Below, in pieces: positions 16,424 to 23,019 of a stretch of 27,527 nt of DNA; position 1 is the stretch's first letter, and the number at the start of each line of letters is the position of its first letter. Origin of the DNA: a virus; the IMG/VR virus record IMGVR_UViG_3300046002_001911, positions 1-27,527 of that record, one strand, 5' to 3'. Under the pieces are notes generated by a model that worked only from the letters and a program-made list of their open reading frames with translations, was not told the DNA's origin and did no database searches. The position numbers and the translations under genes were made by a program.

Positions 16424-16545
16424 GAGAGTTCCAAGACGACAAAAATATAAAAGAAATGAAGTTCCTATTAAAATTATTCTTAACAATAATAGGATTAGTA
16501 GGAATAATGATAGGGTTAACAGTTTACGAAATACTTACAAAATGA
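16420..16545 (+). CDS. Small single-pass membrane protein
   Basis: A 41-residue protein. A charged N-terminus (MREFQDDKNIKEMK) is followed by one hydrophobic segment of about 22 residues (LLKLFLTIIGLVGIMIGLTV) and a short polar end. It is framed by ATGA overlaps with both neighbours (16420-16423 and 16542-16545), which supports this start over the in-frame ATG at codon 13. Small early membrane proteins in phages often alter the host envelope or exclude other phages; here that is only a possibility. Confidence 0.6.
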   Translation: MREFQDDKNIKEMKFLLKLFLTIIGLVGIMIGLTVYEILTK

Positions 16546-18803: not shown

Positions 18804-18811
18804 TATATTTG
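18804..18811 (+). promoter_or_regulatory. Candidate -7 box TATATTTG, 3 nt before the lipoprotein start
   Basis: TATATTTG then tgc and ATG (18815). It fits TAnnTTTG; no TTG is visible at the usual -33 place. The transcript would be leaderless or nearly so. Confidence 0.45.
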
Positions 18812-18814
18812 TGC

Positions 18815-19009
18815 ATGAAATATTTACCAATCTTACTATTATTATCCTGTAATACCAGCGTTCACCAATACAACCTAGATAGTCAACGTAAAAGTATGCT
18901 GAAATATGACAAGCAAAGCATACGTAAACAGCAGAATATAAGAGATGGGAGAGGTAAAACACTATTTAGAATTAATATAAATAAGAGTAAAAAGATTATA
19001 ATTAGATAA
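18815..19009 (+). CDS. Small lipoprotein
   Basis: A 64-residue protein with a lipoprotein signal: MKYLPILLLLSCNTSVHQ, where a short basic start, a Leu-rich stretch and LLSC form a lipobox with Cys12. The mature protein is short and basic (RKSMLKYDKQSIRKQQNIRD) and would be anchored in the envelope. I use ATG 18815 rather than the upstream TTG (18809), since it gives the cleaner signal. The gene stands alone within the noncoding region, with its own -7 box and terminator. Phage and prophage lipoproteins may block receptors against other phages or alter the host; this is inference. Confidence 0.65.
   Translation: MKYLPILLLLSCNTSVHQYNLDSQRKSMLKYDKQSIRKQQNIRDGRGKTLFRININKSKKIIIR
18957..18984 (+). 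repeat. 28-nt dispersed repeat, copy 2
   Basis: Matches 3369-3396 at 27 of 28 positions. Here it lies within the 3' coding part of the lipoprotein gene, so it is read as codons, whereas copy 1 is intergenic. A weaker relative is at 15160-15180 (19 of 21 positions). Confidence 0.65.
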
Positions 19010-19038: not shown

Positions 19039-19055
19039 TTTTATGCCACATAAAT

Positions 19056-19390
19056 AGTAATCTTTTTTATTTTTTAGTAATCTTTTTGAAAGTAAAAGAT
19101 TCTTAGTGGTAGCAAGGGTTTACAAAAAAGCAGTAATCTTTCTAAAAAAAAAGATTCTTAGTGGTACCTAAGCGTAGAGGGCAATAGTAATCTTTTTTGG
19201 CTAAAATCGCTACCTTTTTATATATAATACCCAAAAAACCCGAAAAAAAAAAGTTGAAAAACACGAAAAAACATTACTATTCGTCTGTATCCTTAGGTAC
19301 CACTAAGAATCTTTTTAAAAAAAAAGATTACTATGAAACACAAAAAGATTTTTTCACCCTCTTAGCCTTAGGTACCACTAAGAATCTTTT
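19056..19390 (+). repeat. Mixed direct and inverted repeat array, candidate replication origin
   Basis: Two repeated words are interleaved. Word A, AGTAATCTTT, is at 19056, 19076, 19132 and 19186, and inverted at 19321-19332, with a one-mismatch inverted copy near 19266-19280. Word B is a 24-bp sequence containing GATTCTTAGTGGTACC. It is at 19149-19172, and its exact reverse complement is at 19292-19315 and 19367-19390. A shorter copy is at 19094-19111. Long A and T runs lie between. The array precedes the SF3 helicase gene, where phage origins often lie. No convincing gene is present. Confidence 0.75.
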
Positions 19391-19420
19391 TTTTTATAGG
19401 TAAAATAAATGATAAAATTA

Positions 19421-19450
19421 TTGTCAATTAAAATATTATACTTACTTTTG
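19421..19450 (+). promoter_or_regulatory. Promoter of the SF3 helicase gene, near consensus
   Basis: TTG (19421-19423), 19 bp, TACTTTTG (19443-19450), which fits TTG-N19-TAnnTTTG. The expected start is near 19455, giving a leader of about 95 nt before ATG 19551. Confidence 0.75.
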
Positions 19451-19454
19451 TAAA

Positions 19455-19533
19455 AGTTGAGCCATGCAGGGCTATAAAGATATTTAACGAGTTGGTGGAG
19501 GAACTGCATTTCTGAAGCCGCTCGTTTTTTTTT
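19455..19533 (+). ncRNA. Structured leader RNA, probable attenuator or small RNA
   Basis: Hairpin 1: AGCC (19460-19463)/GGCT (19470-19473) with the 6-nt loop ATGCAG. Hairpin 2 is the terminator at 19486, whose top is AGGAA/TTTCT with the loop CTGCA. The loop of hairpin 1 is the exact complement of CTGCAT (19504-19509), so the two can kiss. AACTGCAT (19502-19509) is also the complement of ATGCAGTT (19543-19550), which touches the start codon. A short frame, MQGYKDI, opens at 19464. The RNA could be a leader attenuator or a free small RNA of about 79 nt. Confidence 0.6.
19486..19533 (+). terminator. Intrinsic terminator within the SF3 helicase leader
   Basis: AACGAG (19486-19491) pairs with CTCGTT (19521-19526), then GG/CC (19494-19495 and 19518-19519) and AGGAA/TTTCT inside, around the loop CTGCA. 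Nine Ts end at 19533. It lies only 18 bp before the ATG and downstream of the promoter, so it would stop the gene's own transcript unless overcome. Confidence 0.75.
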
Positions 19534-19550
19534 AATTAATAAATGCAGTT

Positions 19551-20948
19551 ATGATTAACAATTTAATTAATCCAGAAGATAAATTCTGGAGTTCAAACCA
19601 AGATGGTAAAGTATCATTGAATAACTTTAAATTTAAAAGGTTTTTAGAGATGCATGATTTCTTTAAAAACAAACCTAACGAAAACAGCTCTTTTAATATA
19701 ATCAAAAAGAATGGTATTTTTTTAGAGATTCAAGATGAAACAGATATTAAAGATTTTGTTTTAACTTATGTATTAAAGAATAATTTAGGTGAAGATGTAT
19801 ATAATCTTCTTACTACTCGTTTAACAATATTTAAACGTGACTATTTAAGCATGATAGAAAGTAAAAAAATAGATATATTAAAAGATACTAAAGATATAGC
19901 TTATTTATTTTATAAAAATGGAGTAGTTGAAGTTAAAAAAGATAGTCAGGAGCTAAAAGATTATGCTAACTACGGTTTATCAATATGGAAAGACCAAATA
20001 ATAAATAGAAACTATATTGAAAGCGACCACCACGATAGCGAGTTTAGAACTTTTATATGGAAGATTTCAGGCGAGAATGTAGATAGATATAATACGTTTC
20101 AAAGTGTAATAGGTTACTTAGTACATTCTTATAAATCAAATGGTAATAATAAAGCTATTATTTTAAATGATGAAATGATAAGTGATGAGCCAAATGGAAG
20201 GAGCGGCAAGGGTTTATTTTGGAACGCTTTAAAGCACATGAAAAAAGTACAGTCTATTGATGGTAAACAATTTTCTTTTGCGGGTGATTTTCCATATCAA
20301 TCTGTAAAAACTGACTGCCAAGTATTAGTATTTGATGACGTTAAAAGGAATTTCTTATTTGAAAATTTATTTAGTGTAATTACAGAAGGTATAGAAATTA
20401 CCTACAAAGGTAAAGATACTATTAAATTACCTGTAGAAGATTCACCAAAGATTCTAATTACTACAAATTACACGATTAAAGGAACGGGAGGTTCTCACGA
20501 TGCTAGGAAGTTTGAAGTTGAATTAAGTACATTCTTTAATTCAGGACATACTCCGATTGATTTCTTTAAGCATTATCTTTTTAACGATTGGGACAAATTA
20601 GAATGGGCAAGGTTTGACTGCTACATTATTGAATGTATAAAAAAGTATCTTAATTTTGGATTAATGAATTATGAAAGCATATCTTTACCGTTCAAAAAAT
20701 TTGAATTAGAAATAACCAAAGGACTATTTGAAATAATACAAACTTTGAAAAGTAATGAGTGGATTGTCTTTGATGACTTTTATAATTTATATATTCAGAA
20801 CGTAGTTAAGAAGTGGGATGCGCAAACAAAAAATACAGTTACTAGGAACTTAAAAAAATATATTGCATTCTATAAATATAAATATGAAGAGATTGTAAAT
20901 AATGGTGTTAAAAAATTTAAAATAATTAGAGATGCAGCAACTAACTAA
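19551..20948 (+). CDS. SF3-type replicative helicase (D5/primase-helicase-like)
   Basis: A 465-residue protein with superfamily 3 helicase motifs. Walker A lies in EPNGRSGKG (Gly216 to Lys220), Walker B in VLVFDDVKRN (Asp262, Asp263), and a motif C/sensor in ILITTNYTIKG (Asn306), followed by the conserved GGSHDARKFEVELS with its Arg. Such helicases melt origins and drive phage or plasmid replication. Residues 1-190 show no recognisable primase motifs; a separate primase or a very diverged domain must be assumed. The C-terminal 130 residues are helical and may be a winged-helix DNA-binding part. It is the first gene after the repeat array, under a leader with a terminator, and overlaps the next gene by 17 bp. 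Confidence 0.85.
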   Translation: MINNLINPEDKFWSSNQDGKVSLNNFKFKRFLEMHDFFKNKPNENSSFNIIKKNGIFLEIQDETDIKDFVLTYVLKNNLGEDVYNLLTTRLTIFKRDYLSMIESKKIDILKDTKDIAYLFYKNGVVEVKKDSQELKDYANYGLSIWKDQIINRNYIESDHHDSEFRTFIWKISGENVDRYNTFQSVIGYLVHSYKSNGNNKAIILNDEMISDEPNGRSGKGLFWNALKHMKKVQSIDGKQFSFAGDFPYQSVKTDCQVLVFDDVKRNFLFENLFSVITEGIEITYKGKDTIKLPVEDSPKILITTNYTIKGTGGSHDARKFEVELSTFFNSGHTPIDFFKHYLFNDWDKLEWARFDCYIIECIKKYLNFGLMNYESISLPFKKFELEITKGLFEIIQTLKSNEWIVFDDFYNLYIQNVVKKWDAQTKNTVTRNLKKYIAFYKYKYEEIVNNGVKKFKIIRDAATN

Positions 20949-21294
20949 ACCAAAATGTATAATACTAAACACTCCTTTCATATCCATTAAAGAGGAATTA
21001 GCTAAACAGTATATTGAATTATCAGAACATGAAAAGATAAACGGTAATTTAAGAACTGAAATAGATATTAATACAGCATTCCATTACATAAAGAATTTAG
21101 CCTTTAGGACTGAAGCTACGCTATTAAAACAACAATCTAAAGACGTAGACACAAAGATTATAGAAAACACGTTAAAACGGCTTATGTTTATTCAATATCA
21201 GTTTAGCAAGTTAGACGTAGAAATTCAAACTTTGAAAAGACAAAATCAATTACTAGAAGAGAAGTTGAATTATTTTAAATCTCAATTCAAATGA
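20932..21294 (+). CDS. Hypothetical coiled-coil protein between two helicases
   Basis: A 120-residue protein with a long helical C-terminal half (IQTLKRQNQLLEEKLNYFK) that should form a coiled coil. The N-terminus has a short hydrophobic stretch (KPKCIILNTPFISIKEEL). No known family. It overlaps the SF3 helicase gene by 17 bp and the next helicase gene by 4 bp, so it likely works with them, for instance as a loader or clamp; this is only inference from position. Confidence 0.6.
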   Translation: MQQLTKPKCIILNTPFISIKEELAKQYIELSEHEKINGNLRTEIDINTAFHYIKNLAFRTEATLLKQQSKDVDTKIIENTLKRLMFIQYQFSKLDVEIQTLKRQNQLLEEKLNYFKSQFK

Positions 21295-22682
21295 TAGTTT
21301 TACGGGAGTATCAAAAAGAATATATTGATAAAATAAAGAAAAGTTTTAAAAACGGTAATAAAAAACTTATACTTTGTTCTGCTACGGGGTCAGGTAAAAC
21401 GATTATGTTTAGCTATATGACTTTGGAAGCTATTAATAAGGGTAAAAACGTATTAATATTAACTGATAGAAAGGAATTATTTACACAATCGACAAGCTCC
21501 CTTCATAAAATGGGGTTAGTTCCTTCCGAAATTAGACCGAGTAAAGAAGTAGATGAAAACAAATTGCACGTTGGAATGATACAAACCGTTTCAAGACGTT
21601 TAGACAAGCTAAAAGATTACTTTGATACCTTAGATTTGATAATAATAGATGAAGCTCACAAAACTATCTTTGATAAAGTATTCAATTATATAAACAAAAA
21701 CACTTTTGTAATAGGTGCAACTGCTACACCTCATCGAGAAAAGAATCAAGATAGCTTAAAATTATATTATTCTGATATTATTCAAGTTATTGATACTCCT
21801 GACTTAATAAAATTAGGGAACTTATCTACACCTGAAAGCTATGGAGTGCCGATTAATTTAAAAGGGGTAAAAACTAGAGGAGGTGATTACGATGAGAAAG
21901 CAATGGCTGATAAGTTTAGTGAAATTAAATTGTTTCATGGGGTTTTTGATAATTACCAACGATTAACGCCCAATAAGAAAGCTTTAGTATTTGCGCCAAA
22001 TGTAGAAAGTAGTAAGGAACTTGTAGAAAGTTTTAGCGACAAAGGTTTACCCTGTAAGCACGTTGACTGTTATATGAGTGATGAGGTTAGAAAATATACT
22101 TTAAAATGGTTTGCAGAAACACCCAATGCTATACTATCAAATTACGGCATATTAACAACGGGTTTTGATTGTCCTAGTATTGAAGTAGTGATACTTTACA
22201 GAGCAACTAAAAGTTTACCTTTATTCCTGCAAATGGTTGGACGTGGTTCTAGGGTTACTGAAAGTAAAAACACATTTACAATATTAGATTTTGGGAACAA
22301 TATTAAAACACATAACTATTGGGAAGCTGCCAGAGTATGGAGCTTAGATAAAAAAGAATATAAAGAAGATTCTGCACCGCTTAAAGAGTGTCCTTCATGT
22401 TACTTTATAAATTCCAATACAGCGAGTGAGTGCGCAAATTGTGGTTTTATATTTAAGAAAACAGAACAGGAACTAGAAGCAGAAATAATAGTTGAACTAC
22501 AGAAAATGAACAAATGGCAAAGTATAGATTTTTTAGTAGATGCAAGTTTTAAAGATTTAGAATTATATGCAACTGCAAAAGGGTATAGTAAGAACTGGGT
22601 TAAACATCAATTAAAAACAGAGAAAGATTTTTATGACTATGGAGAATACAAAGGATATAGAAAAGGGTGGGACAAGTACTGA
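21291..22682 (+). CDS. SF2 DEAD/DEAH-type helicase with a C-terminal zinc ribbon
   Basis: A 463-residue helicase. Visible motifs: LREYQKEYI near the start, motif I ATGSGKT (31-37), motif II DEAH (120-123), motif III GATATP (142-147) and motif VI QMVGRGSR (314-321). After the second RecA-like domain comes Cys367-x2-Cys370-x10-Cys381-x2-Cys384 (CPSC and CANC), a zinc ribbon. The layout is like RecG/UvsW/SSL2-related phage helicases that remodel branched or origin DNA. Its last 50 bp overlap the following nuclease gene. Likely acts in replication fork processing with the Erf and nuclease proteins. Confidence 0.9.
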   Translation: MIVLREYQKEYIDKIKKSFKNGNKKLILCSATGSGKTIMFSYMTLEAINKGKNVLILTDRKELFTQSTSSLHKMGLVPSEIRPSKEVDENKLHVGMIQTVSRRLDKLKDYFDTLDLIIIDEAHKTIFDKVFNYINKNTFVIGATATPHREKNQDSLKLYYSDIIQVIDTPDLIKLGNLSTPESYGVPINLKGVKTRGGDYDEKAMADKFSEIKLFHGVFDNYQRLTPNKKALVFAPNVESSKELVESFSDKGLPCKHVDCYMSDEVRKYTLKWFAETPNAILSNYGILTTGFDCPSIEVVILYRATKSLPLFLQMVGRGSRVTESKNTFTILDFGNNIKTHNYWEAARVWSLDKKEYKEDSAPLKECPSCYFINSNTASECANCGFIFKKTEQELEAEIIVELQKMNKWQSIDFLVDASFKDLELYATAKGYSKNWVKHQLKTEKDFYDYGEYKGYRKGWDKY

Positions 22683-23019
22683 AAATAAAATACAGCAGCA
22701 AATGTATTTATGGTTTGTAAATAATTACAGTTTAAAGGATAATATTAAAGGTATTTTTGCAAGTGTACCGAATGATTCAAAGGACGCTAAAGAGCAGATG
22801 AGAAAAAAAGCTACGGGAATGAAAGTAGGTCATGCAGATTTTAACGTATATTTGCCTAACGGTAAAGTATTGATGTTCGAAGTTAAGACACCAATAGGAA
22901 AACAAAGCGACCATCAAAAAAGATTTGAACTAGAAGTACAAGGATTAGGATTTGAATATTACATAGTAAGAAGTTTAGATGAGTTTAAAAATATAATAGA
23001 AACGATATGGCAGATATAA
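22633..23019 (+). CDS. VRR-NUC family nuclease
   Basis: A 128-residue PD-(D/E)xK nuclease of the VRR-NUC type. The active site is visible: Asp69 in GHADFNVYLP and Glu83-x-Lys85 in MFEVKTPIG, then SDHQKRFE and a helix near GLGFEYYIV. Such small phage enzymes are thought to cut branched DNA such as Holliday junctions. It overlaps the helicase gene by 50 bp (or 44 if translation starts at ATG 22639), a large overlap that supports co-expression. It may resolve recombination intermediates before packaging. Confidence 0.87.
   Translation: MTMENTKDIEKGGTSTENKIQQQMYLWFVNNYSLKDNIKGIFASVPNDSKDAKEQMRKKATGMKVGHADFNVYLPNGKVLMFEVKTPIGKQSDHQKRFELEVQGLGFEYYIVRSLDEFKNIIETIWQI

Follow-up and report, generated by a model that had tools for sequence, protein, structure and literature searches.

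The control of genes through short complementary RNA words has precedents in the CI RNA of phage P4, the C4 RNA and plasmid antisense control. C4 (RF01695), from P1- and P7-like phages, is a small phage RNA that is complementary to a downstream translation start region. In the plasmid systems ColE1 RNA I/II and CopA/CopT, complementary loops of 6–8 nt serve as the specificity words of a replication system. Hairpins of the T4 type, located ahead of phage homing endonuclease genes, block translation. The P4 CI RNA derives from the leader of the replication operon and acts by premature termination; its pairing with two flanking sequences, seqA on the upstream and seqC on the downstream side, terminates the replication operon (PMC4825925).

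The locus analysed here lies in a 27.5-kb virus record of a Bacteroidota-type phage (27,527 nucleotides, the whole of which we call the window) that carries head, tail, lysis, Erf-type annealing, helicase, methyltransferase and exonuclease genes. As in P4, an antisense word (B) is flanked up- and downstream by complementary words (A and C) on the leader of a phage replication operon. We think, with a probability of roughly 0.55, that this leader is a self-limiting regulatory RNA that ends early, with B acting as antisense to both A and C. The same architecture with different words in related phages points to a widespread and undescribed RNA switch for early phage genes. At the level of sequence the RNA architecture is well supported by the promoter, the A-B-C arrangement, A–B covariation and the own-code C, and together with comparative statistics the sequences place it at the starts of replication genes and mobile-endonuclease genes. 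For its activity we infer termination in vivo, release of a small RNA, action in trans and negative feedback.

The leader and its operon

The leader occupies positions 19421–19553, at the start of the replication operon of the window, and each segment described in an earlier note on this DNA was found again at the same coordinates. The promoter that the note had called near-consensus is present (19421–19450, plus strand), but its class is the Bacteroidota type. Promoters of this type (sigma-ABfr) have a TAnnTTTG -7 element and an upstream TTG at a spacing of about 19 bp; the window has TTG at 19421–19423, a 19-bp spacer and TACTTTTG at 19443–19450, that is, TTG-N19-TACTTTTG. The assignment is based on the sequence and on the TANNTTTG consensus and spacing described for Flavobacterium johnsoniae (PMC6847099), and the promoter is kept in the relatives L001–L003 and L005 and throughout the family. 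A sigma-70 reading was discarded, as the site is absent from the list of a sigma-70 scan and fits TTG-N19-TAnnTTTG instead. With the spacing to the transcript start taken from the same study, transcription is predicted to begin at about 19455, and the predicted RNA of about 79 nt would end at the terminator hairpin P2.

The first hairpin, AGCC[AUGCAG]GGCU, is predicted by folding at 19460–19473 (plus strand) and presents segment A in its loop, at 19464–19469; its position and the role of its loop are constant across the family. An AU-rich linker, AUAAAGAUAUUU (19474–19485, plus strand), is the counterpart of the AAGAAAUUAUU of the family (alignments A2, A3 and A4) and is possibly a cleavage or spacer segment. 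It is followed on the same strand by P2 (19486–19526; AACGAGU/GCUCGUU with inner stems) and a T9 run at 19525–19533, near the end of which the 3′ end of the RNA is predicted (near 19533). The innermost stem, GGAA[CUGCAU]UUCU (19500–19513), carries segment B, CUGCAU, as the apical loop (19504–19509, plus strand). Both of these loops, ATGCAG in the first hairpin and CTGCA(T) in the terminator, had been claimed in the note and are confirmed. By sequence and fold P2 is a stable hairpin (-14.2 kcal/mol) followed by a U-run, as in an intrinsic terminator, and is predicted to terminate; it is missing from the output of a simple short-loop terminator scan. Compensatory changes occur in P2 of L003, and P2 covaries in the second-type relatives described below. 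The folding stability of the whole region is ordinary (z = -0.57), and folding energy was discarded as evidence for the leader.

Segment C, AAAUGCAGUU (19541–19550, plus strand), is a copy of A that abuts the start codon of the helicase gene. The word itself, AUGCAGUU, adjoins that codon, with ATGCAGTT at 19543–19550 and the ATG at 19551. B can pair with A over 6 nt. With its flanks it can pair with C over 10 nt, AACUGCAUUU (19502–19511) with AAAUGCAGUU (19541–19550), so that the complementarity claimed earlier is present but longer than the 8 nt then given. In the 27.5 kb of the window AACTGCAT occurs once and ATGCAGTT three times. Translation in Flavobacterium starts without Shine–Dalgarno sequences and is tuned by structure near the start codon (PMC6847099). 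A three-codon frame, ATG CAG TTA TGA, lies at 19543–19554 with its stop overlapping the helicase start; it is not general in the family.

The first gene of the operon and presumed target of control encodes an SF3-type helicase (phrog_28855; 19551–20948, plus strand), assigned by its motifs GRSGKG, VFDDV and ITTN; it has no Pfam match and no PDB sequence match. The rest of the operon (20932–23019, plus strand) encodes a 120-aa protein, a DEAD-type helicase and a nuclease-like protein. Upstream of the promoter there is a long AT-rich stretch with inverted and direct repeats (19053–19396; AGTAATCTTTTT / GATTCTTAGTGGTACC), a possible origin or operator; the corresponding regions of relatives bear different repeat sequences. 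Further upstream, a small lipoprotein-like ORF (18809–19009; MKYLPILLLLSC..) is conserved ahead of the element in many relatives.

Private words in related phages

Loci encoding relatives of the helicase were gathered using the protein of the window and an alignment of seven relatives. The close relatives L001 and L003 have the A, B and C words of the window unchanged. In L002, L004 and L005, whose helicases are 90%, 80% and 73% identical, the layout is the same and the element is different: a hairpin GGUAAG[CCUUGGAA]CUUCC, a terminator ACCCAUUUG..CAAAUGGGU and the complement of the first loop in the terminator loop. The window and L002 are 79% identical over the region, yet their elements differ, and that of L002 lacks the third segment; the set of three segments described earlier is therefore not universal. 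Judging from the sequences, codes are exchanged between close relatives. Scans with second-type patterns located more phages, with the words GCCTGGAA, GCCGGAA, GCGTGGAA and GCCTGAGAA and the exact complement in each terminator loop. In L006–L054 the helicase part is mostly the end of a larger protein, so that the stretch immediately ahead of the matched domain belongs to the coding sequence; elements, where found, lie further upstream.

Other searches gave little. The window-type pattern GTGGAGGNACTGCATT matched 114 stretches, nearly all of them by chance, with only the two known relatives real, and two matches of a pattern search of genome contigs, in unlikely hosts, were taken as chance. Neither the region of the window nor the element of one relative has DNA similarity to known phages, and the one match of a pooled element query, 30 bp in Croceibacter phage P2559Y, does not show the architecture.

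With relatives and phages found by the constant motifs alone, the family comprises 62 non-redundant elements and 32 independent codes. The unbiased test of A–B pairing is carried by searches with motifs only. When only the promoter, the AAGA-linker and a U-tailed hairpin were required, with no demand for complementarity, A–B runs reached 6 nt or more in 35 of 38 non-redundant elements; when each code was represented once, own A and B matched over at least 6 nt in 19 of 21, against 7.6% of swapped pairs. An independent set, fetched solely via the linker and the AGTAG..CGAA motif around the loop, contained 22 promoter-bearing elements with 13 unique loops, and all 13 had A–B matches of 6–7 nt (0 of 20,000 permutations). 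Folds predicted across the family leave A and B mostly unpaired in loops, the median stability of P2 is -19.5 kcal/mol and the tails are U-rich.

A structure-blind MAFFT alignment of 18 second-type sequences agrees with this picture: the A–B helix is 100% paired with two-sided changes in four of its five pairs, and in P2 five pairs have changed on both sides. The covariation of the whole structure, 0.279 against 0.129 when shuffled (0 of 500) and no more than 0.095 when the partners were slid, is supportive but not independent, because the structure was derived from the same sequences, many of which were found by complementarity.

Word C is real but optional, being missing from about two thirds of the codes in the first set. 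Of the 32 codes, 10 have an own C that matches A over at least 6 nt, compared with 1.7% of swapped pairs (0 of 20,000 permutations); in the independent set this is so for 8 of the 13 unique loops, compared with 12% of swapped pairs (again 0 of 20,000). Examples are AGTACAG-T-ATG (L203), GATACAG-T-ATG (L263), CATCCAC-ATG (L259), GTTGCAG-ATG (L037), GGGCAT (L249) and TTAGCACGGC-ATG (L211); codes that match only via G-U pairs, such as ACGGTCAA with ACGGTTAA in L207, were left uncounted. The recurrence of own A–B and own B–C matches across unrelated codes is the decisive evidence, and it upholds the proposal in the earlier note of a competing-pairing leader with kissing loops and a terminator. The segments vary together in relatives, where independent variation would have spoken against that proposal.

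Two further sequence features deserve mention. In L026–L041, L203, L263 and L335–L387 the B loop is surrounded by a constant AGUAG..CGAA, which we take to resemble a loop-E/sarcin-ricin internal loop (AGUA/GAA) that presumably presents B rigidly. A different leader precedes some NUMOD4 genes on the contigs of L193 and L195 (G005 near 2910, G006 near 16439), with a loop word GUGUUUA or GCGUUUA and UAAACAC or UAAACGC before the ATG, i.e. a B–C pair with no obvious A loop.

The distribution was scanned in 38 whole or nearly whole phage contigs and the window. Accepted elements score 34–52 and the best control on reversed sequence 37.2; the weakest, including the window type (34.4), score below this maximum and so rest on conservation and C. 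Most phages have one element and some have two or three with different words, as in G007 with GCCTGAGAA, GTAGTGC and GTGGTAG; among the phages of the set no word is repeated within a phage. The link to an SF3 helicase made in the note proved too narrow. Genes directly downstream include, among those for replication, the helicase type of the window, BT4734-like/PriCT_1 primases, DUF3987 proteins and DEAD/SNF2 helicases, and in addition DNA methyltransferases, NUMOD4/HNH homing endonucleases and, by sequence only, a GIY-YIG-like gene; an element stands right before 12 of 18 inspected NUMOD4 genes. Several descriptor matches were rejected by eye: the L203/L248 element read in inverted orientation, repeats of GGGAAA in L261 and L262, and single matches in P2559Y, P12002L and G026. 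The GGGAAA/TTTCCC repeats, on the minus strand at L261:863-987 and L262:505-630, form hairpins accompanied by a promoter-like motif, a distinct structured element beside the leader.

Three cultured phages are likely members. Flavobacterium phage FCL-2 (record 37475) has the code CATCCAC, and Polaribacter phage P12002L (record 34477, minus strand) has GGTCGTAG before a gene annotated as primosomal protein; both show the family layout and score 38.4–38.8, slightly over the control maximum. Polaribacter phage Leef_1 (record 24538) has A as TGCAACAT, C as ATGCAACATCC on the start codon and a more divergent P2. The annotated start of gp29 in Leef_1 (L334:24538-24991, NC_062750) seems to lie inside the promoter; the true start is likely ATGCAACATCC at about 24710, overlapping C. 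No element was found in Flavobacterium phage 6H.

Readings of the leader

The self-limiting RNA would work as follows. From the Bacteroidota promoter, a structured RNA of about 79 nt would be made that stops at its own intrinsic terminator, P2, and only read-through transcripts would reach the replication operon. The antisense word would be the terminator loop B, which could pair either with the loop of the 5′ hairpin (A) or with the copy of this loop word at the start codon (C). On a lone nascent transcript A would hold B, so that C is accessible and translation of the first gene proceeds. With growing amounts of terminated RNA, B would act in trans on A of nascent transcripts and shift them towards termination and, where C exists, would act on the start codon and block initiation. 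The operon would thereby receive an early burst and then shut itself off. Blocking of the start codon cannot be the general mechanism, since C is missing from about two thirds of codes.

The main argument for action in trans is that no word is repeated within a phage and that the window and L002 carry different elements in regions 79% identical. Action of B between molecules would require a word private to each element, and this would explain why codes differ within one phage and are replaced between close relatives. This is also what tells against the strongest competitor, a purely cis timing attenuator. There, A and C would compete for B solely within one transcript and so determine how much transcription reads through and how much of the mRNA can be translated; once terminated, the RNA would do nothing more, and codes would be free to drift. 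The objection is that pairing inside one molecule does not call for private words. Such an attenuator is a serious possibility, albeit a rather unlikely one. It accommodates a near-universal A–B match with an optional C, and the element lies directly upstream of its presumed target gene. Furthermore, B matches other start codons of the same phages in 3 of 52 cases against 5.2%, which is not above chance, so that regulation looks local. Some observations weigh on the self-limiting RNA itself. A and B are on one small RNA, and B may be locked in cis, although it may escape if the weak kissing of 6–7 bp opens or the linker is cut. The A–B match of the window is only 6 nt, with all three words invariant in its closest relatives, and, as the pairing requires no particular sequence, some of the code diversity could reflect neutral drift. 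In second-type elements termination may be partial, as several U-tracts are short (UUUUGUCAUUU).

Immunity of the P4 CI or P1/P7 C4 kind, where a resident phage blocks the replication genes of an incomer with the same code, we consider improbable. The A-B-C order equals seqA-cI-seqC of P4 (PMC4825925), hypervariable codes would suit immunity groups, and in Leef_1, a phage with annotated integrase genes, A-B-C lies a short way ahead of the anti-repressor gene. Yet elements also precede homing endonucleases, Rfam gives no C4 match, and a tyrosine integrase was found in none of 36 contigs including the window, so that lysogenic immunity is not indicated, although these contigs are fragmentary and the absence is weak evidence. 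It is very improbable that the element is DNA (an origin hairpin or recombination site) merely resembling RNA control: an AT-rich inverted-repeat region lies just upstream (19053–19396) and close relatives carry different elements, but RNA is favoured by the strand-specific promoter, the U-tail on one strand, the invariant layout from promoter to hairpin and the position of C at the start codon. Least credible is a small RNA aimed in trans at host mRNAs, for although the prediction is of a discrete RNA of 79 nt that exposes a loop, codes vary between close phage relatives and frequently match the gene that follows their own element.

A wider form of the self-limiting reading is held more tentatively, at somewhat less than an even chance: that replication operons and homing endonucleases of Bacteroidota phages widely share RNA modules with privately coded kissing loops. 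Each module would auto-repress only the genes bearing its own word, so that phages and mobile endonucleases would fall into RNA-defined compatibility groups, which acquire new codes when modules are exchanged. In that case the early genes of many phages in a major bacterial phylum would be timed by a small RNA that is not listed in Rfam, and its specificity could be read from the sequence as a word of 6–10 nt in two or three places. Compatibility groups would be directly testable, and there would be a mechanism for an early burst and shut-off without protein repressors. Dozens of natural loop-loop regulators would be candidates for orthogonal use in Bacteroidota genetics, and one portable cassette would connect phage replication control with homing endonuclease genes.

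Comparison with described systems

Searches of Rfam 15 (riboswitches, leaders and sRNAs) gave no match at the gathering score, and relaxed searches gave only sub-threshold, chance-like matches. C4 (RF01695) has no match in the window at gathering and none at a relaxed E-value in 19380–19600 or in the Leef_1 element. No description of the element was found in the open-access literature; subscription papers and preprints lay outside this search, and an earlier description is possible.

The flanked word of P4 has its counterpart, A-B-C, in the window and 10 of the 32 codes; the others have A-B alone. Unlike in P4, B lies inside a promoter-proximal intrinsic terminator, A is a hairpin loop, and C, missing in many cases, sits directly at the start codon; the host phylum, promoter and sequence also differ, no lysogeny genes were seen and the words are hypervariable. 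The predicted RNA resembles C4 in being a small phage RNA whose complement lies where translation of a downstream gene starts, but the genes in question are those of replication and homing endonucleases rather than ant. With ColE1 and CopA it shares complementary loops as specificity words in a replication system, whereas here A, B and C are all on the same strand of one RNA behind one promoter, with no convergent antisense transcript. As with the T4-type hairpins, RNA structure would control the expression of a free-standing endonuclease; here, in contrast, it comes as a portable promoter-plus-terminator cassette with A and B words that replication genes use too. As far as tested, the new feature is the combination of a promoter-proximal terminator, private A and B words, an optional C and use by homing endonucleases.
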